From: Actinomycetota bacterium
GTDB taxonomy: Bacteria > Actinomycetota > Actinomycetes > JACCUZ01
Reading direction: 5' to 3'
NCBI GenBank assembly: GCA_030841035.1
Contig: JAVEDI010000051.1
Coordinates: 1-64,000 of the forward strand
DNA length: 64,000 nucleotides
In this document: piece by piece, positions 3,208-55,956 of the stretch
Position numbering within the stretch: position 1 is the first letter of the stretch
Layout of the letters: the number at the start of each line of letters is the position of its first letter
The notes under the pieces: model-generated
The model's input: the letters and a program-made list of their open reading frames with translations, nothing else
Told to the model about the DNA's origin: nothing
Database searches by the model: none
Translations under genes and position numbers: made by a program

Positions 3208-4307
3208 GGTCGCAGCCCGTGCTGCGGGACGCCACGGTGTCCCTGGGGGCGTTCTGCGACGGAGACACGGCCGAGATCGTCAGCGCTGCGCGCGACCCCG
3301 AGACGCGGCGCTGGACGACGTTGAGACTCGACTACACCACGGCCGACGCCCGGCAGTTCGTGGCCTTCGCCGCGCAGAGCTGGGCCACCGGCGCGGAATG
3401 CGTGTGGGCGATGCGCGCCCCCGGCGAGGCACGTTGGGCCGGTTCGATGGCGCTGCGCGCCGACCACCGCGATCCGCAGCTGGCCGACGTCGGCTTCCTC
3501 TGCGCCCCTTGGGCCCGCGGGCGGGGGCTGACCACGGCGGCCCTGCGGCTGACCTGCGCGTGGGGCTTCCGCGAGCTGGGCCTGGCCCGCATCGAGTGGC
3601 GAGCACACGTCGGCAACCTGGCCTCACGCTGGGTGGCCGAAAGGGTGGGCTTCGTGTTCGAAGGCACCCAGCGGCAACGACTTGTGCAACGCGGCATCCG
3701 CCGTGACGCATGGGTCGGCGGACTGCTGCCGGGCGACCTGCGCTCGGTGGATCCTCCGACCGCGCTCGCCCCGGAAGTGCGCACCGAGGGGCTGCTGCTC
3801 GGTCCGTGGCGCGAGCAGGACGCGCCGCAGGTGCTGGAGATCGCCGAGGACCCGGACACACGGGCCTGGTCGGGGTCCATGCGCGCGATGCGCACACTCG
3901 ACGACGCACGTGAGTGGATGCGTGCCCGCAGGGCAGACGACGACCGCGTCGACTGGGCCGTGCGCGACGCCGACACCGAGCTACTGGTGGGGAGGGTCGG
4001 GCTGGGTCACTTCGACCACCAGGCCCGCAGCTGTGAGATCGGGTACGGCGTCCATCCCGGGCACCGCCGTCGTGGTGTGGCCCTCCGGGCGGTCACAGCC
4101 GCGACGGCGTACGGCTTCGAGTCGTTGGGACTGGCGCGGATAGCGCTGTTCCACGCCATCGGCAACCCGGCCTCGTGCGCGGTCGCGACCGCGACCGGGT
4201 TCGAGTTCGAGGGAATCGAGCGGTCCTCATTCGACCACGGCGACGGCGTGCTGCACGACGTACACCGTCATGCCCGGCTGGCGAGTGACCCACCGGTGAT
4301 CCGGTGA
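3204..4307 (+). CDS. Tandem double-GNAT acetyltransferase (domains A' and B)
   Basis: A 367-residue protein with two complete GNAT domains. The first half (about residues 1-175) carries APWARGRGLTTAA and ends GGLLPGDL; it is clearly a duplicate of the preceding gene (GLLPGEL). The second half (about 190-367) carries EIGYGVHPGHRRRGVALRA and ends HARLASDPPVIR, resembling the gene that follows (HARLASDPEPVA). ATG at 3204 overlaps the upstream stop as ATGA. The stop codon TGA at 4305-4307 lies inside an 8-bp tandem repeat, so the last codons are repeat-derived. Reading frame continues open far upstream into antisense secA, but that part is a high-GC shadow. Either both domains are active or one regulates the other; the substrate is unknown. 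Confidence 0.87.
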   Translation: MRSQPVLRDATVSLGAFCDGDTAEIVSAARDPETRRWTTLRLDYTTADARQFVAFAAQSWATGAECVWAMRAPGEARWAGSMALRADHRDPQLADVGFLCAPWARGRGLTTAALRLTCAWGFRELGLARIEWRAHVGNLASRWVAERVGFVFEGTQRQRLVQRGIRRDAWVGGLLPGDLRSVDPPTALAPEVRTEGLLLGPWREQDAPQVLEIAEDPDTRAWSGSMRAMRTLDDAREWMRARRADDDRVDWAVRDADTELLVGRVGLGHFDHQARSCEIGYGVHPGHRRRGVALRAVTAATAYGFESLGLARIALFHAIGNPASCAVATATGFEFEGIERSSFDHGDGVLHDVHRHARLASDPPVIR

Positions 4308-4340
4308 TCCGGTGATCCGGTGATCCGGTGATCCGGTGAT
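4293..4340. repeat. Perfect 6 x 8 bp tandem repeat CCGGTGAT
   Basis: Six exact head-to-tail copies of CCGGTGAT fill 4293-4340. The repeat contains the stop codon of the upstream double-GNAT gene (TGA 4305-4307) and the GTG start of the next GNAT gene (4336). Each unit carries GTGA, so a start and a stop codon overlap in every copy. Because 8 is not a multiple of 3, adding or losing a copy changes the spacing and relative frame of the two genes, but the upstream stop is fixed by the first two copies. This kind of short perfect repeat is prone to slippage. Confidence 0.97.
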
Positions 4341-4887
4341 CGAGCCGGTCGAGATCGCGGCGGGACGACTGCAGCTGCGAGCGCCGGTAGATGCCGACGC
4401 GACCGATGCCCTGCTGATGCTGCAGGATCCCGCCGTCCGGCTGTGGAACCCCGCCCCCGAGGTCCTCGACCTCGCGGACGCGCGCGAGTGGTGCCGGCGC
4501 GGCGCGAACTGGGCCGATGGCCAGCACGCGACGTTCGTGGTGATCGATGCGACGACGGGACGGCTGCTCGGCAACGTGTCACTGCACTCGATCGACTCCG
4601 AGCAGCACGATGCGGAGATCGGCTACCGCGTCGCGCCCTGGGCGCGGGGCGCCGGCGTCGGCACCGATGCGGTGGCCGCGGCCACGCGCTGGGCGTTCGG
4701 CACGCTTGACCTGGTGCGTATCGAACTCGCTCACGCCGTCGTCAACCCTGCCTCGTGCCGGGTGGCGGAGAAGGCGGGCTACCTGCTGGAGGGAACGCTG
4801 CGGCAGTCGTACATCTATGGCGACGGGATGCGGTACGACGAGCACCTGCACGCCAGGCTGGCCAGCGACCCCGAGCCGGTCGCCTGA
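4336..4887 (+). CDS. GNAT N-acetyltransferase (domain type B')
   Basis: A 183-residue RimJ/RimL-like acetyltransferase: N-terminal VEIAAGRLQLRAP, central AEIGYRVAPWARGAGVGTDA (acetyl-CoA loop) and NPASCRVAEKAGY. It is most like the second domain of the preceding gene, including the shared ending HARLASDP. The GTG start lies in the last copy of the CCGGTGAT repeat and has no recognisable Shine-Dalgarno, so initiation probably depends on ribosomes that stop 29 nt upstream at the end of the preceding gene. The frame is closed upstream by a TGA at 4321-4323, which confirms that the start must be within or after the last repeat copies. It ends 6 bp from the convergent cyclase gene. Confidence 0.85.
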   Translation: MIEPVEIAAGRLQLRAPVDADATDALLMLQDPAVRLWNPAPEVLDLADAREWCRRGANWADGQHATFVVIDATTGRLLGNVSLHSIDSEQHDAEIGYRVAPWARGAGVGTDAVAAATRWAFGTLDLVRIELAHAVVNPASCRVAEKAGYLLEGTLRQSYIYGDGMRYDEHLHARLASDPEPVA

Positions 4888-13142: not shown

Positions 13143-14867
13143 TCAGCCGGGGTAGACGGGGTCGCGCCCGGGACCGAGCGGCTGCCACCCCACGCCGCTG
13201 GGGTCCCACTGCTGCACCAGCCCCGAGCTGGTGGCGGCGACCAGCGGCAGCCCGGGCGCCGAGGCGACCGCCGCGAGGCCCTGCTGTGCCGTCACGCCCT
13301 CATCGACGCTGAAGCCGTCGACCGCGAGCTGCAGCGGCGCCGACGCCGCGTCGCCGAGCCGGCCGAGCACCGTCAACCCGCCCGCGTCGGCCCAGGACAC
13401 CGCGCGCACGCCGGTCAGGTCCGGCCGCACCTCGTAGACAGCGGAGACCCGTTCCACCGCGCCGCTCGCCGCCCGCACGATCCCGCCGACGTACAGCCTG
13501 CCGGTCTCGCCCGAGCCGACGACCAGCGCGATGCGGCTGCCGTCGTGCGACACGCGCACGGCGGTGAGCGGCCCCGCGGCCAGCCGCGGCACGGCCACCT
13601 CGGCGAACCGGTCGGGGCGCTTCGCGCGCATCAGCAGCCGACCGGTCGCCTTGTCGACGACCCACAGGTCGCCGCTGCGGTCCCAGCTGGGCGCGCTGAA
13701 CTGGCCCGTGGTGACGGCCGCCTGCTCGAGGGTGGTGTTCGCCGCGAGCCGCCCGATCAGCAGCCGCCGCCGGTCGGCACTGACCGCGGCGACCTGCTCG
13801 TTGTCCAGCGACACGGCCGGCAGCCGAAGGCCGGCTCCTGCGGCTCCTGCGGCCCCCGCCACGGCGACCACGCGGTCGTTCGCGATGCGCGACACCCGTC
13901 CCTCGTGCACGACGTAGCAGGACGCCGACGAGCCCGGCGCCTCGGGGTCGTAGCCGCTCCACGCGGTGACCGGCTGCTCCCGCGCGACGCCGGTGGTCAC
14001 CAGGTCGTCGCCGTCGGCGAGGATGCGGATGCGCTGGATGCCCGGCAGCTGCTTGAGGGTCCACACGATCTGCGCGGACATGCTCGCGCGCGAGTCGGTG
14101 GCGGCCTGCAGCGCCGCCTGGTTGAGGTTGACGGTGGCGAGCCCGTTGCGCACCGGCACCGACCCGACGTCGAGCTGGGTGCCCTGGGGGAACGCCGTGT
14201 CGACGGCGCCACGCAGGTCGGTGGTGGGCCCGCGCAGCAGTCGGGAGACCGCCTTGGCCGGGAGGCCGGGCAGGTTGGGCAGCAGGATCGGGTCGGGGAC
14301 GACCATCGTCGAGGTCGGTGCCAGGAAGTAGAGGTTGATCGGGCGGTAGGCCACGTCGACGTCGGAGGTCGAGAGCACCAGCCCCTTCGGCGGCGTCGCG
14401 ATGCGCCACTCGCCGGCGGCCCGGACGAGGCGGAACGTGCGGTGGACCAGCGTCGCGGGCGGCACCCGGCGGTAGAGCCCGTCGGCACCGATGCGGGCGA
14501 CCTCGCTGGCCTCGAACGTGACAGTGCCGTCGCTGCGGACATCGACGGTGGAACCGGGCCGCCGGTCGTAGACCGAGGTGCCCGACAGCGGCTCCCACCG
14601 CTGGGAGGCCTGCGGCGTGAGGTACTGACGCGCGATGGCGTGGTCGTCGAGGAAGTCGCCCATGGCGCGCAGAAAGCCACGGACGATCGCCTCCGGGGGG
14701 GCGCCGGGGGCGGGGGCGAAGCCGACGTTGCGCACCTCGATGTCCCGGTCGACCGCGAGGTCGCGGCCCTGGTGCACGGGGCCGCTCGTCGGGATGCCGG
14801 CGCACCCGCTCAGGACGGCTGCCAGCAGGATCCCGAGGGCGACCAGGCGCAGGGGCGGCCCGAGCAC
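13143..14867 (-). CDS. lpqB: Lipoprotein LpqB (GerMN domain, MtrAB partner)
   Basis: A 574-residue lipoprotein; signal peptide LRLVALGILLAAVLSGC with lipobox LSGC, so the mature protein is anchored outside the membrane. An N-terminal region (SGPVHQGRD...) and a GerMN-type domain (LNQAALQAATDSRASMSAQIVWTLKQL) are followed by a C-terminal beta-propeller-like half. In mycobacteria and corynebacteria LpqB interacts with the MtrB sensor and tunes MtrA signalling, cell wall and division. It is encoded 7 bp after mtrB. Start GTG 14867 gives the signal peptide directly; GTG 14885 would overlap mtrB. A run of alanine-glycine codons (AGAAGAAGAG) lies near the middle. Confidence 0.93.
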   Translation of the reverse strand: MLGPPLRLVALGILLAAVLSGCAGIPTSGPVHQGRDLAVDRDIEVRNVGFAPAPGAPPEAIVRGFLRAMGDFLDDHAIARQYLTPQASQRWEPLSGTSVYDRRPGSTVDVRSDGTVTFEASEVARIGADGLYRRVPPATLVHRTFRLVRAAGEWRIATPPKGLVLSTSDVDVAYRPINLYFLAPTSTMVVPDPILLPNLPGLPAKAVSRLLRGPTTDLRGAVDTAFPQGTQLDVGSVPVRNGLATVNLNQAALQAATDSRASMSAQIVWTLKQLPGIQRIRILADGDDLVTTGVAREQPVTAWSGYDPEAPGSSASCYVVHEGRVSRIANDRVVAVAGAAGAAGAGLRLPAVSLDNEQVAAVSADRRRLLIGRLAANTTLEQAAVTTGQFSAPSWDRSGDLWVVDKATGRLLMRAKRPDRFAEVAVPRLAAGPLTAVRVSHDGSRIALVVGSGETGRLYVGGIVRAASGAVERVSAVYEVRPDLTGVRAVSWADAGGLTVLGRLGDAASAPLQLAVDGFSVDEGVTAQQGLAAVASAPGLPLVAATSSGLVQQWDPSGVGWQPLGPGRDPVYPG

Positions 14868-14874
14868 CGTCCGC

Positions 14875-16536
14875 TCAGCGCGCACGACCGGCTCCGGGGG
14901 GCGCCACGGTGGAGACCTGCTGGTAGGGCTGCCCCACGCCCACCGGCCGCCTCCGGCGGGCCGAGTCACGCGGTTCGAGCGGGATCGGCGAGTGCGCGAG
15001 CTCGTGGCCCACCCGGCGCGGCAACGTGAGCCGGAACTGCGAGCCGTCCCCGGACTCGCCCCACACCTGCAGCCAGCCGCCGTGCAGATGGGCGTCCTCC
15101 ATGGCGATGGACAGGCCCAGGCCGGTGCCGCCGGTCGTACGGGCCCGCGCCGGGTCCGCCCGCCAGAATCGGTTGAACACCATCGCGGCCTCACCCGGGG
15201 CGAGGCCTACCCCGTGGTCGCGGACCGCGATCGCCACCGCGTCCTCGTCGGCTGCGACCCCCACCTCGACCGGGCGGCCCTCGCCGTGTTCGATCGCGTT
15301 GGCGACGAGGTTGCGCAGGATGCGCTCGATGCGGCGTACGTCGACGTCGGCGAGGCATGGCGTGTCGGGCGCGCGCACCACGAGCTGGGACCCCCTCCGG
15401 TCGGCCAGCGGCTCCATCGCCTCGACCACCGACTGGGCGACCCTGCGCAGGTCGGTCGTCTCCACCTCGAGCACGGCTGCGCCCGCGTCGTACCGGCTGA
15501 TCTCCAGCAGGTCACCCAGCAGCGACTCGAACCGGTCGAGCTGGGTCTGCAGGATCTCCGCGCTGCGCTCGACCGACGGGCCGAACTGGCCGCGGGCCTC
15601 GTGGAGCACGTCGGCGGCCATCCGCACGGTCGTGAGCGGGGTGCGCAGCTCGTGGGAGACGTCGGCGACGAACCGGCGCTGCACCCGGGAGAGGTCCTCG
15701 AGCTGGCGGATCTGTCTCTGCAGGCTGGTCGCCATCTTGTTGAAGGCGGCCGCGAGCCGCGCCAGGTCGTCCTCGCCGCGGACCTTCATGCGCTCCTCGA
15801 GCCGTCCGGCGGAGAGCCGCTCGGCGATCCGGGCCGCCATCCGCACCGGTGTCACGACCTGGCGGGTGACCAGCCAGGCGATCGCTCCCACGAGGATCAC
15901 CAGGCCCAGCGCGGCGAAGCCCAGGCCGCGGCGCACCAGCCCCAGCGTCGCGGCCTCCTTGTCGAGCGGGAAGACGAAGTACAGCTCGTAGAGGCCGTAG
16001 GTCGGGATGGTGACCAGCGAGCCGATCGCGACGGCCGGCTGCTCCTCACCCGTCGTGCTGGTGAGCGTGCAGTAGGTCCACTGCTGGGTGGTGGTCGACT
16101 GCAGCCGCTCCTGCAGGCGGTGGGGGATCGTCGAGGAGCTGTCCATGTCGTGGGAGATGACGCCGAAGGGCGCCGGCTGGCTGCCCTCGGGGCCGGGCAG
16201 CAGCGCGACGCTGTTGGCGCCGGCCGGGCCGCCCGCCGAGGACAACCGGGTGACGATGTCATGCGCGACGGTGTCGTAGTCGGTGGAGGAGCGGTCGGCC
16301 GAGCGGAACGCGTCCTGTGCCGCGGTGGTGCCGTTGGACGCCTCGGCGAGGGCCGCCTGCACCTTGGCGTCCAGCAGGCCGTCGCGGACCCGGGCGAGCA
16401 CGACGCTGCCCAGCGCCGCGATGACCACGATGGTCAGGACGGTGGTGGTGGTGACGACGCGCAGCTGCAGCGAACGCCGCCAGAGCGCGACCGTACGCCG
16501 GCGCCGGCGCGCGACCCGGCGGCGCAGCGCGACCAC
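14875..16536 (-). CDS. mtrB: Sensor histidine kinase MtrB
   Basis: A 553-residue membrane kinase. First membrane helix at about 28-50 (TTTTVLTIVVIAALGSVVLA), an extracytoplasmic loop of about 130 residues, second helix about 195-218 (GFAALGLVILVGAIAWLV), HAMP (about 219-270), the H-box FVADVSHELRTPLTTVR with the phospho-accepting His, and ATPase motifs N (NLVANAIEHGEG), G1 (VRDHGVGLAPGE) and G2 (GGTGLGLSI). It phosphorylates MtrA and in actinobacteria controls genes for cell wall hydrolases, division and osmotic response. GTG 16536 is the only good in-frame start before the mtrA stop 44 bp away. Confidence 0.95.
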   Translation of the reverse strand: MVALRRRVARRRRRTVALWRRSLQLRVVTTTTVLTIVVIAALGSVVLARVRDGLLDAKVQAALAEASNGTTAAQDAFRSADRSSTDYDTVAHDIVTRLSSAGGPAGANSVALLPGPEGSQPAPFGVISHDMDSSSTIPHRLQERLQSTTTQQWTYCTLTSTTGEEQPAVAIGSLVTIPTYGLYELYFVFPLDKEAATLGLVRRGLGFAALGLVILVGAIAWLVTRQVVTPVRMAARIAERLSAGRLEERMKVRGEDDLARLAAAFNKMATSLQRQIRQLEDLSRVQRRFVADVSHELRTPLTTVRMAADVLHEARGQFGPSVERSAEILQTQLDRFESLLGDLLEISRYDAGAAVLEVETTDLRRVAQSVVEAMEPLADRRGSQLVVRAPDTPCLADVDVRRIERILRNLVANAIEHGEGRPVEVGVAADEDAVAIAVRDHGVGLAPGEAAMVFNRFWRADPARARTTGGTGLGLSIAMEDAHLHGGWLQVWGESGDGSQFRLTLPRRVGHELAHSPIPLEPRDSARRRRPVGVGQPYQQVSTVAPPGAGRAR

Positions 16537-16580
16537 GCCGGCGGCCCGCGGCCGCAGCGTGTGGGAGGGACGTGTGACGC

Positions 16581-17267
16581 TCAGGCGGGACCTGCCTTGT
16601 AGCCGACACCGCGCACGGTCACGACCACCTCGGGCCGCTCGGGGTCGGACTCGATCTTGGAGCGCAGCCGCTGCACGTGGACGTTGACCAGACGCGTGTC
16701 AGCGGCGTGCCGGTAGCCCCACACCTGCTCGAGCAGCACCTCGCGCGTGAACACCTGCCACGGCTTGCGCGCGAGCGCGACCAGCAGGTCGAACTCGAGC
16801 GGCGTGAGCGCGATCGGCTCGCCGGCGCGCTTGACGGAGTGGCCGGCCACGTCGATGACCAGGTCGCCGATCTCGAGCAGCTCCTGCCCCGGGTCGTCGG
16901 TGCGGCGCAGCCGGGCCCGGATGCGGGCGACCAGCTCCTTGGGCTTGAACGGCTTGACGATGTAGTCGTCGGCGCCGGACTCGAGACCCACGACGATGTC
17001 GACGGTGTCGGCCTTGGCGGTGAGCATCACGATCGGGATGCCGGACTCGGAGCGGATCTGGCGGCAGATGTCGATGCCGTCGGTGCCGGGCAGCATCAGG
17101 TCGAGCAGCACCAGATCGGGCTTGTGCTCGCGGAAGGCGGCCACCGCCCGGTCGCCGTGGGTGCACAGCATCGGCTCGTAGCCCTCGCCCCGCAGGACGA
17201 TCCCGAGCATCTCGGCGAGCGCGGAGTCGTCATCGACGATGAGCACGCGTCCCTTCATGCTGTTCAT
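16581..17267 (-). CDS. mtrA: Response regulator MtrA (OmpR/PhoB family)
   Basis: A 228-residue response regulator. Receiver domain with VDDDSALAEML, phospho-acceptor Asp in LVLLDLMLPGTDG, Thr in VMLTAKAD and Lys in DYIVKPFKPKEL. The winged-helix output domain ends VNVHVQRLRSKIESDPERPEVVVTVRGVGYKAG, the usual OmpR-type close. MtrA is essential in mycobacteria and binds direct repeats of GTCAC-type motifs at oriC and at cell wall hydrolase promoters. Two such repeats exist in this window, upstream of the amidase and SpoIID genes. Two in-frame starts, ATG 17267 and ATG 17258; a GGGGG run fits 17267. First gene of the mtrA-mtrB-lpqB operon. Confidence 0.96.
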   Translation of the reverse strand: MNSMKGRVLIVDDDSALAEMLGIVLRGEGYEPMLCTHGDRAVAAFREHKPDLVLLDLMLPGTDGIDICRQIRSESGIPIVMLTAKADTVDIVVGLESGADDYIVKPFKPKELVARIRARLRRTDDPGQELLEIGDLVIDVAGHSVKRAGEPIALTPLEFDLLVALARKPWQVFTREVLLEQVWGYRHAADTRLVNVHVQRLRSKIESDPERPEVVVTVRGVGYKAGPA

Positions 17268-44399: not shown

Positions 44400-46427
44400 T
44401 CAGCCGGCGAAGCCGACGGTCCGCGACACGGGGCCGCCGCCCACTCTGTTGCGCAGGTAGAACGTCCGGCCGCGCGCGACCCCGGCGGTCATCCGCCGGT
44501 CGCCGTTCCAGTCGCCGGGCAGGGCGAGGTCGGCCGGGAGGCCGTAGCGGAAGCTGCGGGTGACCGCGCCGGTCTTGAGCCGGTCGCGCAGCAGCCAACG
44601 CCCACCCCGGACCACGCCGACCGTCGTCGTCCCGTTGCCGTCCCAGTCGCCGACCACGGGCCGGTCGGTGGCGGCGCCGTACCGGAACGACGCCTGGGTG
44701 CGACCTGCGGTGGCCGTCGCCCGCAGCAGCCACCGGCCCGAGCGGACCACTCCGATGCCCAGCGTCGTGCCGTTCCAGCGGCCGACCACCGGGCGGTCGC
44801 CCTTCGTGCCGAAGGTGAAGGACGTGTCCAGCGGGCCCTCGCCCCTGCCCTTGCGCACGAACCAGCGCCCGGACCGGAAGATGCCGATGTCCTCGGTGCC
44901 GTCACGGTTCCAGTCGCCCACGACCGGGACGTCGCCCGGCTTGCCAAGCCGCAGTCGCTTGGTCCACCTGCCGTCGACCAGCAGCGCGGCCTCGCCGCCC
45001 CGCCACCAGCCCAGGTCGTCGTCGCCGTCCCCGTCCCAGTCGCCCACGACGGGCACGGCGGGCGCGCCGCCGATGCGGCGCAGCGAGATCGTGAAGCCCG
45101 GTGAGGGCAGGCCCAGCGCCTGGCGCACGTCCCAGCCCTCGACCTGGCGGGTGACGAGCGCGCCGTTCTGGAAGCCGGTGATGCGCACCCCCTCGGTCCG
45201 GGCGTCGGTGCCGCGGGCGGGGACCGAGATGCTGCTCAGCCGCTCGTAGCCCAGCGCCGTCGCGAGTGCCGACCAGGTGTACGCCGCCGCCCACGACCGC
45301 TTGGCCGGCGGGTTGCTCGAGGCCATCTCCCAGGCCGAGTCGTCGATGGAACGCAGGAACGGCGCCTCCTGGCCCCAGACGTAGCGCTCGTCCTCGGAGC
45401 GCCCGCCGTGCGAGGAGGAGTAGTAGGTGTCGATCAGCGCGCCCGTGCCGGTGGCCGTCACCACCTGCCCCGACGTCTCGTCGACCGCCGCCTTCCAGCG
45501 CAGGGCATGTCCCGCGGCGTCCTTGAACGCGCCGTCCTGGGCCTCCTTGGCGTAGCCGGTGTAGTTCTGGTCGGCGGGGGTCGGCATCAGCGCCTGGCCG
45601 GGCCGCTTCGCGGCGTACGTCCGGGCCGCGACCGCCTGGGCCTTCAACGCCTCGTGCGCGCCGTTGGTCCACGAGACCGGCACCTCGGCGATCCCCCACA
45701 GGTACTTGTCCATCGCCTTGCCCTCGGCGTCGTCCTCGATGACCTGCTGGCCGTCGAGCAGGCCGCCGGTGATGGCGAAGCGGGTGTAGCCCCAGCGCAG
45801 CCGACGGTCGAGGAAGATCGAGCTGCCGCGCCAGGTGGTCTCGTGCACCACCGAGCCGTTGTGGCGCAGACGCAGCGTCTGCGTCGGCGTCCCGCCCTGC
45901 CAGAGGAGCTTCTTCGGCGTGGCACCGAGGTCCCACAACGCGTACTTCGTGGCGGTCGCGTCGAGGCGCAGCTGCCACGTGGCGCCCTTGGGCTGCACCG
46001 GGGGGCAGGCGGCCGCGCAGCCGGTGAGCACCCAGGGCACGTCGGCGGTCTCGGCCACGGCGTCGACGCGGTAGCCGTCGCTCAGCATCCGCACGAAGAC
46101 CCGGCCGGGCATGGTCGCGGGCGCCACCGTCGTGCCGGTGTAGTACGTCGTGAGGATCTCGGTGTAGGTGCAGCCCAGTCGGGCCGCGCCCTGGGCGCCG
46201 TACTGGCTCATGCCCAGGCCGTGACCCCAGCCGTGCCCGCGGAAGACCACGTCCCCGCTCGCCGTCCCCTCCGGCACCGCCGCGCCGCCCGGCGCGGGGC
46301 ACTGCGCGGCCGAGGCCGGTGGCACCGCGACGGCGGCTACGCCGAGCGGGAGCGCCAGGGCGGCGGCCAGGACCAGGGCCGTCGAGCGCAGCGGCCCGGC
46401 GAGGCGGCGAGGGGACTGCTCAGACAT
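44400..46427 (-). CDS. Secreted SpoIID/LytB domain protein with C-terminal VCBS/FG-GAP-like repeats
   Basis: A 675-residue exported protein. Signal peptide at about 12-40 ending PPASAAQ. The SpoIID/LytB domain covers about 50-420: GHGWGHGLGMSQYGAQGAARLG, LWGIAEVPVSWTNGAHEALKAQAVAARTYAAK and TGTGALIDTYYSSSHGGRSEDERYVWG are its signatures. SpoIID is a lytic transglycosylase in Bacillus. Five repeats at about 465-675 carry PVVGDWDGDG- or PVVGDWNRDG-type lines and act as a beta-propeller-like surface. ATG 46427 chosen over GTG 46445 because AAAGG lies upstream and the signal peptide fits. A GTCAC direct repeat lies 36-50 bp upstream. Probably peptidoglycan-modifying; catalytic Glu not assigned. 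Confidence 0.91.
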   Translation of the reverse strand: MSEQSPRRLAGPLRSTALVLAAALALPLGVAAVAVPPASAAQCPAPGGAAVPEGTASGDVVFRGHGWGHGLGMSQYGAQGAARLGCTYTEILTTYYTGTTVAPATMPGRVFVRMLSDGYRVDAVAETADVPWVLTGCAAACPPVQPKGATWQLRLDATATKYALWDLGATPKKLLWQGGTPTQTLRLRHNGSVVHETTWRGSSIFLDRRLRWGYTRFAITGGLLDGQQVIEDDAEGKAMDKYLWGIAEVPVSWTNGAHEALKAQAVAARTYAAKRPGQALMPTPADQNYTGYAKEAQDGAFKDAAGHALRWKAAVDETSGQVVTATGTGALIDTYYSSSHGGRSEDERYVWGQEAPFLRSIDDSAWEMASSNPPAKRSWAAAYTWSALATALGYERLSSISVPARGTDARTEGVRITGFQNGALVTRQVEGWDVRQALGLPSPGFTISLRRIGGAPAVPVVGDWDGDGDDDLGWWRGGEAALLVDGRWTKRLRLGKPGDVPVVGDWNRDGTEDIGIFRSGRWFVRKGRGEGPLDTSFTFGTKGDRPVVGRWNGTTLGIGVVRSGRWLLRATATAGRTQASFRYGAATDRPVVGDWDGNGTTTVGVVRGGRWLLRDRLKTGAVTRSFRYGLPADLALPGDWNGDRRMTAGVARGRTFYLRNRVGGGPVSRTVGFAG

Positions 46428-46462
46428 GGAGGGAAGGCCTTTCACGGTGCGTGGGAGGCTGG

Positions 46463-46477
46463 TGTGACGGCAGTGAC
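46463..46477 (-). promoter_or_regulatory. GTCAC direct repeat (MtrA-box-like) upstream of the SpoIID/LytB gene
   Basis: On the minus strand two half-sites, GTCACT and GTCACA, lie 9 bp apart (complement of 46472-46477 and 46463-46468), 36-50 bp before the ATG at 46427. The spacing and sequence match the GTCAC-type nonamer repeats reported for MtrA. Confidence 0.55.
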
Positions 46478-50549: not shown

Positions 50550-53249
50550 TCAGCGGTAGAAGCCGACGACGTCACCGACCAGGTGCGTCGAGCCCGAACG
50601 GTTGTAGAGGTTGACCCGGCCCTTCCTGCCGATGGCGACCACGACCAGGTTGGCCGTCGTGCGCCCCCGCAGCACGTTGAGGTCGGAGGCAGTGGGCCGC
50701 GGGACGCCGGCCGGCCACGCCGTGAGATAGGTCGACGCGCTGGCGTCGGTGGCGGTGAGGTTCATCACCACGGCCGAGGCGTTCGCCGGCAGTGCCCCGC
50801 CCTTGCCGCGCACGGTCAGCGCGATCGTCCGGTTGGCGGCCACTCGGGCCCGCTTGGCGCCCAGCCCGGTGCGGGTGTCCAGCACCCGCCGCGGCGAGAC
50901 GGCCTGGAAGGCCTTGCCGCCGGCCACCGAGGTCGGCGCGTACCAGCCCACCACGTCGAGGACGACGTGCGCCGCGGCGCCGCGGCTGTCGATGCGCAGC
51001 CGGCCACCCTGGGACAGCGCCGTGACGGCCCGGTTGGCCACCGACACGCCTCTCACGTAGCTCAGCGAGGTCCCGGCGCCCAGCCCCGACCCGGCCCGGT
51101 GCACGGTGACGGTGCCCGTGCCGGTGCCCTGCGTGGCCGTCACGTTGAGGACCACGCCGCCCATCTGCTCCGGTGCGATCCCGCTCAGGCCCGGCATCGC
51201 GATGGTGCGCCCGCTGCCCTTCGCGAGCGGTCCCGCGGGGTCCTTGCGCGAGTCGAAGAGCCGGAACGGTGAGACGGCGTGCAACGTCTGGCCGGTCACC
51301 GTGCCGTCCGCGGCGCGCGCGCTCGGGTAGTACCCCACGACGTCGACCGCGACCTCCGTCGTACCCGTGTTGTTGTAGAGGCTGACCAGCCCGTTGCCGC
51401 CGAGGGCGGTCATCGTCAGTGCCGCCTTGGTGCCGCCCGCCGACACGTTGAGCGTGGACGCCGTCGGCTTGCTCGCCCCCGCGGGCCAGACCGACAGGTA
51501 GGTGCTGGCGCTGGGGCGGCTGGCCGTGACCGTCAGCGCGACCGCGCCGACACCGCCGGACGGGACGCCGCCGCGGCCGGCGACGGGCAGATCGAGGCGC
51601 TCACCGGGGCCCATGGGCAGCCGGCCGTCGGTGCTGTCGTAGACCCGGGCCGGGTCCAGGGGCACGAAGCCCGAGGCCGGCGGCAGTGCCGCCCGGGGCG
51701 CCGGTGGCGGGGTCACGGCCGGAGGGACGACCGTGACCTGGTGCGTCCAGGTGCGGGCCCCGTCGGTGGCTCCCGAGCTGAACAGCGTGAGGTCGAACGG
51801 ACCCGGACGCACGGCGACGCCCGCCTGGTCGCGCAGGTCCCAGGACGCCGCCACGGGCTGGCCCGGCGCGGCCGTGCCCGACTGGGTGCTCAGCAGGCGC
51901 CCGTCCCAGTGGTCGCGGACCTCGAAGGTCCACGACTGCTGCTGCATGGTCGCGGCAGTGACGGTGAGCGGCGGGCCGCCGTACGCCGGCTGGTCCGTCG
52001 AGGTGGCCGGGTCGACCAGGCCGGGGCCCATGTACTGCGTCGCCAACGAGCGGATGGTGCCCAGCTGGTCGTAGAGGAACTGTCCGGGGCACTCGGTGTT
52101 GCCGGCGTCGCGATGCCCCGAGATCACGTTGAAGCCCACCGCGGTCCCCGCGCGGTAGCGCGACGTGCCGCCGCCCTCCGAGACGAGCGTCGTGGTGCCC
52201 ATCGGGTTGCGGAAGGCCAGGGAGAGCCGCCAGGCCAGCAGTCGCGCGATCGAGTCGACCATGACGGGGGGAGCCGCTGTCTTGCCGTAGTCGCCGATGG
52301 CGGAGACCGCGAAGCTGTCGGTGTTGAACCCGCCGGTGTGGGCGCCGAGCACGTCGTTGGTGATCCCGCCGGCCCGGCCCTCCCACAGGCGGCCGAAGCG
52401 GTCGACGAGGAAGTTGTAGCCGATGTCGGACCAGTGGTTGGACCGGGTGTGGAAGGCGTAGACGCCACGGATGATCTGGGGCACCTGGGCCGCGGTGTAG
52501 TTGTTCTTGCCGGCCGTGTGGTGCACGAACCCGGCCTTGACCGTGCCGGTGTAGCGGGGGGCGGCGCTGCGCAGCCGCTCGTCGGCGCCCCACGCCGCCC
52601 GTGAGTTCACGGGGGGCGCGGCGACCGCGGCCGACGCCGAGGCCGCCGCCGGCGCCCCCCTCCCGGCGGACGCGTCGGCCGCGGAGCTGCCCGGGTCCAC
52701 CAGGGCGATGCGCAGGTCGGCGGGGAGCCGACCGCTGTGCAGGTCGACGCGGACCTGGTAGCCGTCGGCGCGACCCACCCACAGCGGCTCGGTGCCGTCG
52801 CGGACGCCGGCCGCCTCGGCCGGAGGAGGGGTGTCCCCCGCCTCCAGCGCCGTCCAGCCGCTCCAGCCGTGCGCCGAGCGGGTCCGCACGACCACGGTGA
52901 AGTCGCCGGCCCGCTGCTGGGCCCGCCAGGTGACACCGACCAGGTCGAAGGGCGCCACGCCGGTCGCAGCCGCGAGCACGGCCGGCCGGGCCGCCGGGGC
53001 ACTCGAGGGGGGGCCGCTCGGCCGGGTCGCGGACCGGCCACCAGCCGCCTGCCACGCCCGGCGCGCCACCGCCGACCCACGTGCCGCGGCGGGCGAGCCC
53101 AGCAGGCCCTCCGCCACCCCGGACAGCAGCCGGTTGCGGACCTCCGGGGCCACCGGGTGGGCCGAGGCCGCCGGCGCGGTGAGCACCGGCAGGGCGCTGA
53201 GGGCGGGCGCGGCGAGGCCCAGGGCGAGGATGGTCGAGGCCTTGCGCAT
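50550..53249 (-). CDS. Secreted PGRP/N-acetylmuramoyl-L-alanine amidase with three C-terminal repeats
   Basis: An 899-residue exported protein. Signal peptide 1-30 (ending APAASA). A spacer of about 180 residues with a small beta domain precedes the amidase_2/PGRP domain (about 213-410): SRAAWGAD, KAGFVHHTAGKNN (zinc His), NFLVDRFGRLWEGRAGG, FNVISGHRDAGNTECPG (zinc His and Cys). Three repeats of about 115 residues follow, each opening with VYDSTDGRLP- or LFDSRKDP- or VLDTRTGLG-type lines and closing with VVGYY, VVGWY or VVGFYR. ATG 53249 has AAAGG upstream; ATG 53330 is in the leader. It cleaves the glycan-peptide bond of peptidoglycan. GTCAC repeats lie about 130-160 bp upstream. Confidence 0.93.
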   Translation of the reverse strand: MRKASTILALGLAAPALSALPVLTAPAASAHPVAPEVRNRLLSGVAEGLLGSPAAARGSAVARRAWQAAGGRSATRPSGPPSSAPAARPAVLAAATGVAPFDLVGVTWRAQQRAGDFTVVVRTRSAHGWSGWTALEAGDTPPPAEAAGVRDGTEPLWVGRADGYQVRVDLHSGRLPADLRIALVDPGSSAADASAGRGAPAAASASAAVAAPPVNSRAAWGADERLRSAAPRYTGTVKAGFVHHTAGKNNYTAAQVPQIIRGVYAFHTRSNHWSDIGYNFLVDRFGRLWEGRAGGITNDVLGAHTGGFNTDSFAVSAIGDYGKTAAPPVMVDSIARLLAWRLSLAFRNPMGTTTLVSEGGGTSRYRAGTAVGFNVISGHRDAGNTECPGQFLYDQLGTIRSLATQYMGPGLVDPATSTDQPAYGGPPLTVTAATMQQQSWTFEVRDHWDGRLLSTQSGTAAPGQPVAASWDLRDQAGVAVRPGPFDLTLFSSGATDGARTWTHQVTVVPPAVTPPPAPRAALPPASGFVPLDPARVYDSTDGRLPMGPGERLDLPVAGRGGVPSGGVGAVALTVTASRPSASTYLSVWPAGASKPTASTLNVSAGGTKAALTMTALGGNGLVSLYNNTGTTEVAVDVVGYYPSARAADGTVTGQTLHAVSPFRLFDSRKDPAGPLAKGSGRTIAMPGLSGIAPEQMGGVVLNVTATQGTGTGTVTVHRAGSGLGAGTSLSYVRGVSVANRAVTALSQGGRLRIDSRGAAAHVVLDVVGWYAPTSVAGGKAFQAVSPRRVLDTRTGLGAKRARVAANRTIALTVRGKGGALPANASAVVMNLTATDASASTYLTAWPAGVPRPTASDLNVLRGRTTANLVVVAIGRKGRVNLYNRSGSTHLVGDVVGFYR

Positions 53250-53375: not shown

Positions 53376-53409
53376 TGTCACACATGTGACAGGTGTGACA
53401 GGTGTGACA
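53376..53409 (-). promoter_or_regulatory. Three 9-bp-spaced GTCACA direct repeats plus an inverted copy (MtrA-box-like) upstream of the amidase
   Basis: On the minus strand GTCACA occurs three times in register at 9-bp steps (complement of 53403-53408, 53394-53399 and 53385-53390), as GTCACACCT, GTCACACCT and GTCACATGT. A fourth copy faces the other way, so TGTCACACATGTGACA (53376-53391) is also an inverted repeat. It lies 127-160 bp before the amidase ATG and about 140 bp from the divergent TIGR03089 gene. Confidence 0.6.
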
Positions 53410-53548: not shown

Positions 53549-54373
53549 ATGGCCTCGCCCACTGCTGCCGCCCCCGGCCCGAACGCGCTGCTGGACCGGG
53601 CGCTGCGTGGCGACCCGGCACGCGCGCTGCTCACCTTCTACGACGACGCGACGGGCGAGCGCACGGAGCTCTCCGTCGCGACCTTCGCCAACTGGGTCGC
53701 CAAGACCGCCCACCTGTGCCGCGACGGGCTCGGGCTGGAGGTCGGCGACCGGGTCGCGATCGCGCTGCCCTGCCACTGGCAGGCCGCCGTGTGGTGGCAG
53801 GCCGCCTGGCTGGCCGGGCTGGTCGTGGTGACCCCGGGAGCGGCGGGCGCGGGGCAGGTCGAGGCGACCGTCCTCGCGGCCCCCTGGCCCGCGGACGCGC
53901 CCGGGCCCGAGCCGGCCCCGCGCTCCGGCGAGGTCGTGGCCCTCGGGCTGGCTCCGATGGGCCTGCCCCGGCCGGGCGCCGCCCCGAGCGGCGCCGTGGA
54001 CTACGACCGGGAGATCCACGGCCATGGCGACCGCTTCGTGCCGCCGCCGGGGCTTGGCCCGGACACGCCGGCGCTCGAGTCCGCCGCCGGGGCGCTGACC
54101 GCCGCGACGCTGGGCGAGCGAGTGGCCGGCGCTGCGGCGCGCTGGGGGCTGGCACCGGGCGAGCGGCTGCTCACCGCCGCGCCGCTCGCCGAGCCGGCCG
54201 ACCTGGTGGCGACCCTGCTGGTGCCGCTGCTGGGCGACGTCGGCGCGGTGCTGTGCCGCCATCTCGAGGCGGCGTCGCAGGACACCCTCGCCCGGCGGGT
54301 GCAGGAGGAACGTGTGACGGCCGTGACGCAGGAGACTCGATTCCGTCTGCCGGGGACCCGTCCCTTAGACTGA
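53549..54373 (+). CDS. TIGR03089 family protein (truncated AMP-binding-like)
   Basis: A 274-residue protein. The first 100 residues resemble the N-terminus of acyl-CoA synthetases (LLTFYDDATGERTELSVATFANWVAKTAHLCRDGLGLEVGDRVAIALPCHWQAAVWWQAAWLAGLVVV), but the adenylate-forming core motifs for ATP and the C-terminal domain are missing, as in the whole TIGR03089 family. Probably not an active ligase. The family sits next to LCP genes in actinobacteria (Rv3268 from memory). ATG 53549; the frame upstream is shadow. The stop lies at the palindrome GACTGATCAGTC. Confidence 0.9.
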   Translation: MASPTAAAPGPNALLDRALRGDPARALLTFYDDATGERTELSVATFANWVAKTAHLCRDGLGLEVGDRVAIALPCHWQAAVWWQAAWLAGLVVVTPGAAGAGQVEATVLAAPWPADAPGPEPAPRSGEVVALGLAPMGLPRPGAAPSGAVDYDREIHGHGDRFVPPPGLGPDTPALESAAGALTAATLGERVAGAAARWGLAPGERLLTAAPLAEPADLVATLLVPLLGDVGAVLCRHLEAASQDTLARRVQEERVTAVTQETRFRLPGTRPLD

Positions 54374-54483: not shown

Positions 54484-55956
54484 GTGCGATCTGACGCCGG
54501 CGGCCGAGCTCCGTCGCGGGCCCGCCACGGGACCCCGCACCGGCCGCTGCGTCGCGTCCTGACCGCTCTCGCCGTGGTCCTCGGGCTGCTCGCCGTCACG
54601 GGCACCGCGAGCGCGCTGGTCGCCTACTACCGGTTCAACAGCAACATCACCCAGGAGAAGGTCGACGACCTGCTCGGATCCAACCGTCCCAGCAAGGTCG
54701 TCAACCCGGACACGCCCACCGAGCCGGAGAACATCCTGCTCATCGGGTCCGACCGGCGGAAGCTGAAGTTCCAGAACGCGCTGAACGCCGGCCAGCGCTC
54801 GGACACCACGATCCTGCTGCACCTGTCGGCCGACAGGAAGAGCGCGGTCCTCGTCAGCATCCCCCGCGACACCATCGTGGACGTGCCCCGGTGCACCCGT
54901 CGCGACGGCACCTCCGTACCGGCCCGGACGGCGGTCATGTTCAACACCGCGTTCTCCGACGCCGGCGCCGCCTGCACGATCGCCACCGTCGAGAAGCTCA
55001 CCAAGATCCGCATCGACCACCACGTCGTCGTCGACTTCGGCGGCTTCAAGGACATGGTCGACGCGCTCGGCGGCGTGACCGTCTGCCTGCCCCAGGCGGT
55101 CAACGACCGCGAGTCCCACCTCGTCCTGAGCGCCGGCCTGCACACGGTCAAGGGCCGCACCGCCCTGGCCTACGTGCGTACCCGGCACGGCCTGGGCAAC
55201 GGCAGCGACATCTCGCGCATCGACCGCCAGCAGGCCTTCCTCGGCTCGATGGTGGAGAAGGTGCGCAGCACCGGGCTGCTCCTGCGGCCCGACAAGCTGC
55301 TGCGCTTCCTGGACGCCGCCACCAACTCGCTGACGACCGACCCGGGTCTGGGCAACCTCAACGCCCTGCGCAAGCTCGCGACCGAGGTCAAGGACATCGA
55401 CAGCCGGGACGTCACGTTCCTCACCGCCCCCAACGAGCCCTACCCGCCCGACCACAACCGGGTGCAGCTCAAGGCGTCGGCCGGGGCCGTGTGGAACGCG
55501 CTTCGCTTCGACCAGCCGTTGCCGGGCAGCCGGAAGGCGGCCACGGGCGCAACACCGGGCCCCACCGCGTCCGGACCGCCCCTGGTCACCCCGCCCGAGA
55601 AGGTCCGGGTGCGGGTGCTCAACGGCTCGAACGCCCCGGGCGAGGCGTCGCGGGTGGCCGAGGAGCTCACCGCCGAGGGATTCCAGGTCGTGGGCGTGGG
55701 CAACGCCGCCCGCCGCGACTACCCCACGACGACGGTGCGCCACGACCCGGCGTACGACGAGTCCGGCCGGACGCTCGGTGCGGCCCTGCCCGCCTCGACG
55801 GTGACCTCCGACAGCTCGCTGGGCAGCACCCTGGTCGTGATCGTCGGTGCTGACGCCCCCCAGGTCGCCCACGTCAGGGTCAGCGGTTCGACCCCCTCCC
55901 CGACGCCGACCGAGACCCTGCGGACCCGCTCCGCCGCCCAGGACGTCTGCGGCTGA
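54484..55956 (+). CDS. LCP family (LytR-CpsA-Psr) phosphotransferase with LytR_C domain
   Basis: A 490-residue membrane-anchored enzyme. N-terminal helix about 24-46 (VLTALAVVLGLLAVTGTASALVAYY). LCP domain about 80-260 with ENILLIGSDRR, SDTTILLHL, VSIPRDTIVDV, FNTAFSDAG, FGGFKDMVDALGGVTVCLPQ and YVRTRHGLGNGSDISRIDRQQ, which hold the conserved Asp and Arg residues for the polyprenyl pyrophosphate. LytR_C domain about 375-470 (VRVRVLNGSNAPGEASRVAEELTAEGFQVV). It joins secondary wall polymers (teichoic acid, arabinogalactan or similar) to peptidoglycan. GTG 54484 with GGAAGGG upstream. Confidence 0.94.
   Translation: MRSDAGGRAPSRARHGTPHRPLRRVLTALAVVLGLLAVTGTASALVAYYRFNSNITQEKVDDLLGSNRPSKVVNPDTPTEPENILLIGSDRRKLKFQNALNAGQRSDTTILLHLSADRKSAVLVSIPRDTIVDVPRCTRRDGTSVPARTAVMFNTAFSDAGAACTIATVEKLTKIRIDHHVVVDFGGFKDMVDALGGVTVCLPQAVNDRESHLVLSAGLHTVKGRTALAYVRTRHGLGNGSDISRIDRQQAFLGSMVEKVRSTGLLLRPDKLLRFLDAATNSLTTDPGLGNLNALRKLATEVKDIDSRDVTFLTAPNEPYPPDHNRVQLKASAGAVWNALRFDQPLPGSRKAATGATPGPTASGPPLVTPPEKVRVRVLNGSNAPGEASRVAEELTAEGFQVVGVGNAARRDYPTTTVRHDPAYDESGRTLGAALPASTVTSDSSLGSTLVVIVGADAPQVAHVRVSGSTPSPTPTETLRTRSAAQDVCG

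Follow-up and report, generated by a model that had tools for sequence, protein, structure and literature searches.

An amidase gene in the window (the whole 64,000-nucleotide stretch of actinobacterial DNA analysed here) is preceded by four GTNAC half-sites set at a constant pitch of exactly 9 bp. This array is genuine and well outside what chance would produce. We found the array at orthologous promoters of different families, and its class recurs near the starts of wall, divisome and cell-separation genes in many actinobacteria; the element is more widespread than the original prediction, made from the window, could see. With moderate confidence, we propose that it is part of a second operator grammar for cell separation in actinobacteria, one not described before. 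Its GTKAC half-sites at 9-bp pitch would be common to SepX/GlpR, SteA, FtsK and several wall hydrolases, and its reader would be MtrA in a polymer-like mode or another factor, alongside the 11-bp MtrA sites.

From position 53408 down to 53377, the minus-strand sequence of the array is GTCACACCT GTCACACCT GTCACATGT GTGAC (Table 1). The original prediction had described three GTCACA copies at period 9 on the amidase strand, which the sequence confirmed as GTCACACCT-GTCACACCT-GTCACATGT, and had overlooked the fourth half-site, GTGAC at 53377–53381, which keeps the same pitch. Its placement of the repeat upstream of a peptidoglycan amidase was also correct, the downstream gene encoding an Amidase_2 protein whose N-terminus suggests that it is secreted. 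The amidase ATG stands 127 bp downstream of the array and the divergent TIGR03089-family gene starts about 140 bp away from it; a simple scan of the amidase promoter for sigma-70 elements and terminators returned no match. Tandem Repeats Finder, run on the window, reported 53385–53409 as a repeat of period 9 with 100% matches. GTCACA-N3-GTCACA with at most one mismatch matched the window six times, four of them inside the amidase array, against 0.31 expected, and a count of six was reached in none of 100 shuffles of the window. GTNAC pairs in the window numbered five at period 9 (three from the amidase array) and 0–1 at each of the remaining periods between 6 and 13, and the number of four-copy GTNAC chains expected in the window from base composition is 2e-6. 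The mtrAB-lpqB operon does lie in the same window, as had been claimed, with mtrA, a histidine-kinase gene (mtrB by position) and lpqB at 13146–17267 of the minus strand. A perfect 8-bp tandem repeat of another kind, CCGGTGAT in about six copies, occupies 4293–4341.

Table 1. Positions of the amidase array, further period-9 pairs and associated genes in the window
Feature	Position	Strand
Period-9 array GTCAC, GTCAC, GTCAC, GTGAC (gene-strand order, 53408 down to 53377)	53377..53408	-
N-acetylmuramoyl-L-alanine amidase, Amidase_2 (PF01510) at residues 236-390, ATG 53249	50550..53249	-
Divergent gene, TIGR03089 family (start is a chosen in-frame ATG; longer ORFs also listed)	53549..54373	+
Second period-9 pair GTCACTGCCGTCAC, immediately upstream of the SpoIID-domain gene	46464..46477	-
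SpoIID-domain protein (PF08486), probable target	44400..46445	-
Third period-9 pair GTCACGGCCGTCAC, within the end of the preceding ORF and about 160 bp before the LCP gene	54314..54327	-
LytR-CpsA-Psr (LCP) family protein, possible target	54484..55956	+
MtrA response regulator, candidate reader	16584..17267	-

The amidase promoters of relatives were then compared. That of a genome of the same genus (G001) reads GTCAC-GTAAC-GTCAC-GTAAC with a pitch identical to that of the window array, and the distance from array to amidase start in this comparison is 154 bp there and 159 bp in the window genome. Alignment of seven family members revealed a GAGACTG-like element followed by a leader of degenerate 9-bp units, the units being read by eye. 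Lag-9 self-identity of the leaders, which uses no motif, was significant in three of the seven (L019, L021 and L023) and, once all lags were allowed, not significant in the other four. In L021, L023, L024 and L026 (scores 19.6, 3.1, 11.3 and 19.2) the best period-9 match fell 41–73 bp ahead of the amidase start, so that within the family the array, where clear, keeps close to that start; the L022 upstream stretch gave no period-9 match with our half-site matrix. This matrix was built from 32 arrays of a pitch-9 triple search, picked by eye as not codon-like, and is partly circular because these included the window's arrays, those of two amidases (G001 and G014) and those of two SepX/GlpR promoters (G025 and G046). 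Applied to 29 upstream stretches, which begin at the protein match and hence in several distant genomes inside the gene, it placed period 9 best in 17, several scores being weak.

Spacing was surveyed in a wider set of genomes. A search for TGTGAC-N{1,9}-TGTGAC in 28 of 60 genomes, picked by us after a triple-GTNAC search, yielded 54 sites at period 9 (23 of 28 genomes) and 23 at period 11 (16 of 28), copies in one array being counted separately; periods 7, 8, 10, 12, 13, 14 and 15 gave 6, 7, 7, 15, 5, 10 and 12, a mean of about 9. GTNAC triples were present at pitch 9 in 42 of the 60 genomes and at pitch 11 in 17, although the pitch-9 counts are inflated by codon repeats, 9 being three codons, and the TGTGAC search is the cleaner of the two. 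Scanning named genomes for GTGACNNRTGTGACNNRTGTGAC returned at least 117 stretches, and among the 80 matches listed 44 were actinobacterial by title, the 36 that were not being left out. By a crude gene caller, 34 of these 44 listed actinobacterial arrays are intergenic. Genes starting near arrays encode SepX/GlpR, SteA, MurA, FtsK, LCP, M23, LysM-SLT, WhiB, NlpC/P60, LysM, SLH-SpoIID, HU, SLT, STAS and DUF3071 proteins, the last of which we take to be SepH, and one MerR-family protein. Since the target proteins scanned were our own picks from the neighbour lists of arrays, and other arrays lie inside genes or adjoin metabolic or unrelated genes, we claim no enrichment statistic. In the literature searched, which did not extend to supplements, we recognised no description of a 9-bp GTGAC array, and this is no proof of absence.

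A genome-wide scan for the GTCACA-N3-GTCACA pattern gave 18 matches in the window's own genome (overlapping ones included) and one for a reversed control pattern. Period-9 sites there precede the genes for SteA and the SepX/GlpR ortholog, a STAS-domain gene and a DUF1684 gene, and a weaker array separates a divergent LysM-SLT gene from a ferredoxin-reductase-like gene, itself followed by the Rv2175c gene. Five of the 14 own-genome sites examined (L010, L014, L015, L016 and L017) are well within called genes. Two one-mismatch matches, C84 and C76, resemble the CRP-type palindrome TGTGA-N6-TCACA and not direct repeats.

Arrays were further compared with the presence of MtrA in one family, f17 (G023, G043 and G060–G092). 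A protein search found an MtrA ortholog in three of its 35 genomes (69–74% identity) and none in the other 32 (best-scoring match at most 50% identical), whereas one title among the cited references describes MtrAB-LpqB as conserved in actinobacteria. Upstream of SepX/GlpR, exact GTNAC pairs were counted without any matrix: outside f17, 7 of 34 genomes have them at period 9 and none has them at another period between 6 and 14, while in f17 they occurred in 0 of 32 (30 of the 32 without MtrA) at any of these periods. A matrix score of at least 12 was reached at 14 of 34 promoters outside f17 (15 by rounded score) versus 0 of 32 in f17, with shuffles reaching it in 6 of 3400 and 5 of 3200 cases, respectively. 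When the matrix was rebuilt from 17 other arrays, without those of f1, f19 and G014, the counts were 12 of 34 versus 0 of 32 (Fisher P 1.6e-4). By score, 19 to 22 of the 34 promoters outside f17 carry no array; where present, its far edge stands about 80–100 bp before the SepX/GlpR protein match. The set comprised 70 matched genomes, from which G010, G015, G022 and G037 were dropped, the match falling short of the N-terminus; the f17 matches are short and N-terminal, about 50 residues in most, and those of G014, G036 and G059 outside f17 are weak. In the rebuilt-matrix test, period 14 reached a score of at least 12 in 5 of 34 promoters, which probably stems from a conserved TGTGTC-like element beside the SepX/GlpR array, and two f17 promoters scored at least 15 at period 11. 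Thirteen printed SepX/GlpR promoters (e.g. L433, L428 and L445) have a GCGACACACCGG-like element, in some as variants, within about 20 bp after the array, and its GACAC core resembles the WhiA motif; TGTGTC-like matches also occur at SepX/GlpR of some array-free genomes.

Strict triples were counted genome-wide in 80 of 93 genomes, 13 being left out: 32 of the 46 outside f17 have one, as do 9 of the 34 f17 members, and in six of these nine f17 genomes the linkers are identical. The f17 genomes that keep MtrA have strict triples in 0 of 3 and SepX/GlpR arrays in 0 of 2. Among the 150 matches listed of a longer list, f17 showed a slight period-9 excess, with 21 matches where five other periods averaged 12.4 (P 0.016). 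Because f17 is one clade, the joint loss of MtrA and arrays comes close to a single event, and regulators besides MtrA may also have been lost there. In G001, which has arrays, the MtrA search gave no match, likely owing to a gap in the draft assembly.

From these sequence comparisons we infer that the array is an operator of an MtrA-linked division and wall regulon, and that its likeliest reader would be MtrA in a 9-bp mode not described for it, a reading in which our confidence stops just short of even. MtrA comes first because the half-site and the target class are the same and because arrays are absent in a family mostly without MtrA. The array units TGTCAC and TGTGAC fit the MtrA half-site consensus t/c-G/t-T/a-n-a-C/T-c. 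The window's own genome encodes an MtrA whose recognition helix and wing equal the M. tuberculosis segments (PMC10609481) except for two conservative helix changes. Like the MtrA sites of Mycobacterium, Corynebacterium and Streptomyces, the arrays are direct repeats with GTNAC-type half-sites and wall and division targets; unlike them, they have pitch 9 rather than 11, often more than two copies and a strict GTKAC core. In the accessible parts of the sources, M. tuberculosis sites are given as 7-mers with a 4-nt gap or 9-mers 2 apart, which is an 11-bp pitch, Streptomyces sites as 6+5 (pitch 11, with one site of pitch 10) and C. glutamicum sites as 8+3 (pitch 11, with the linker length stated to be important), while three 26-mers printed in PMC10609481 have half-sites 11 apart by our reading. 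The comparisons with MtrA, BldC, Rv2175c and FtsR draw on the portions available of PMC6265350, PMC13189361, PMC11215152, PMC10609481, PMC5650626, PMC3353115, PMC4285127, PMC5859096, PMC4601284, PMC6683498 and PMC9602371. Against MtrA as the reader stand the described pitch of 11 (10 in one Streptomyces case) with its reportedly important linker, the several arrays inside genes, and an array-free mtrA promoter in the window, where the upstream region has no GTNAC pair at period 9–11. The MtrA-keeping f17 genomes without arrays, the single-clade nature of f17, the slight period-9 excess and the strict triples that f17 retains, the arrays of G001 and the many SepX/GlpR promoters outside f17 that carry none count against it as well. 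The designation of the repeats as MtrA-type boxes is partly supported: it fits the half-site and many of the target genes, with arrays missing in a family mostly without MtrA, but is wrong on the spacing.

In this reading the array is a multi-copy operator: its tandem WGTKAC-like half-sites keep strictly to a pitch of 9 bp, with at least two copies (four at the amidase), and a winged-helix protein would bind them head to tail. Such binding would set amidase expression jointly with that of the SepX/GlpR, SteA, LysM-SLT, LCP and SpoIID genes, and MtrA would use 9-bp-pitch arrays in addition to its canonical 11-bp sites. Arrays at steA deserve attention, since TapA, a putative mycobacterial homolog with 41% identity to C. 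glutamicum SteA, is reported, in the available part of the source, to activate MtrB in mycobacteria (PMC12338722). As TapA and corynebacterial SteA work differently according to the same text (PMC12338722), a feedback loop through steA is only a suggestion. The timing of cell separation in actinobacteria is an open question, and a recognisable DNA code before divisome and hydrolase genes lets a candidate regulon be read off the sequence. The arrays sharpen the question to whether MtrA tolerates a 9-bp pitch or a second regulator shares its half-site.

Close behind MtrA in this ranking comes a dedicated head-to-tail factor of the BldC/Xis-like wHTH type, distinct from MtrA, that would read the pitch-9 arrays and control division and wall genes; we regard it as a serious, if tentative, candidate. 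BldC binds head to tail on 9-bp repeats with two or four subunits per site, as far as the accessible text goes (PMC5859096), and its operators share with the arrays the directional repeats, the 9-bp pitch and the variable copy number. Pitch 9 and pitch 11 moreover form separate peaks in the same genomes. However, the BldC consensus AATTXXXX(C) is AT-rich, lacks the GTGAC core and is unlike WGTKAC, the half-site resembles that of MtrA, and the arrays are absent from the family that mostly lost MtrA. Tried as a BldC operator proper, the array showed 9-bp direct repeats and no AATTXXXX(C) units (its units are GTCACACCT / TGTGACAGG). The published FtsR motif, in the portion of the source available, is unrelated to the array.

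It is improbable that an Rv2175c-family wHTH protein reads the arrays and controls its own locus. Of 43 regions around the Rv2175c gene, 12 hold a pitch-9 array that scores at least 15; it is not always adjacent to that gene, and in some regions it lies between that gene and a LysM-like gene. The protein is described as DNA-binding in the available text (PMC4601284). Arrays are nevertheless not confined to Rv2175c-encoding genomes: G025, G046 and G032 have arrays at SepX/GlpR without a PF18367 match (PF21531 matches in G025 and G046 being below cut-off), while G023 and G043 have PF18367 and no array at SepX/GlpR or the Rv2175c locus. This distribution largely refutes Rv2175c as a general reader, and its binding to some arrays is possible.

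Slightly less probable still is a canonical MtrA box, as originally proposed. GTCACAgcg direct repeats are indeed quoted as the mycobacterial MtrA element in the source text accessible, but the abutting nonamers of the proposal fail against described 9-mers that lie 2 apart, and the pitch of 9 at every step of the amidase array, instead of the 11 of described sites, refutes the strict form; the amidase array is therefore not a canonical box. Least likely of all is neutral tandem duplication without function, or a leader-RNA element: slippage can yield perfect units such as the doubled GTCACACCT, and 9 is a multiple of codon length, with some matches in other genomes looking like codon repeats, but the pitch is kept while units differ between relatives, the named arrays listed are mostly intergenic, and the array occurs in both orientations relative to the gene.

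Two further observations concern other loci. In a Mycobacteroides genome, a large fatty-acid-synthase-like gene with a fabD-type domain match has a pitch-9 triple (L129:631-653) about 400 bp upstream; fas has the tightest measured M. tuberculosis MtrA site, of pitch 11, in the part of the paper available (PMC10609481). An 11-bp-pitch pair, TGTGACCCTAGTGTGAC, recurs in L381 and in the MtrA-less f17 genomes G043, G062, G063, G068, G069 and G070, and in G043 it stands about 34 bp before an apparent response-regulator gene.
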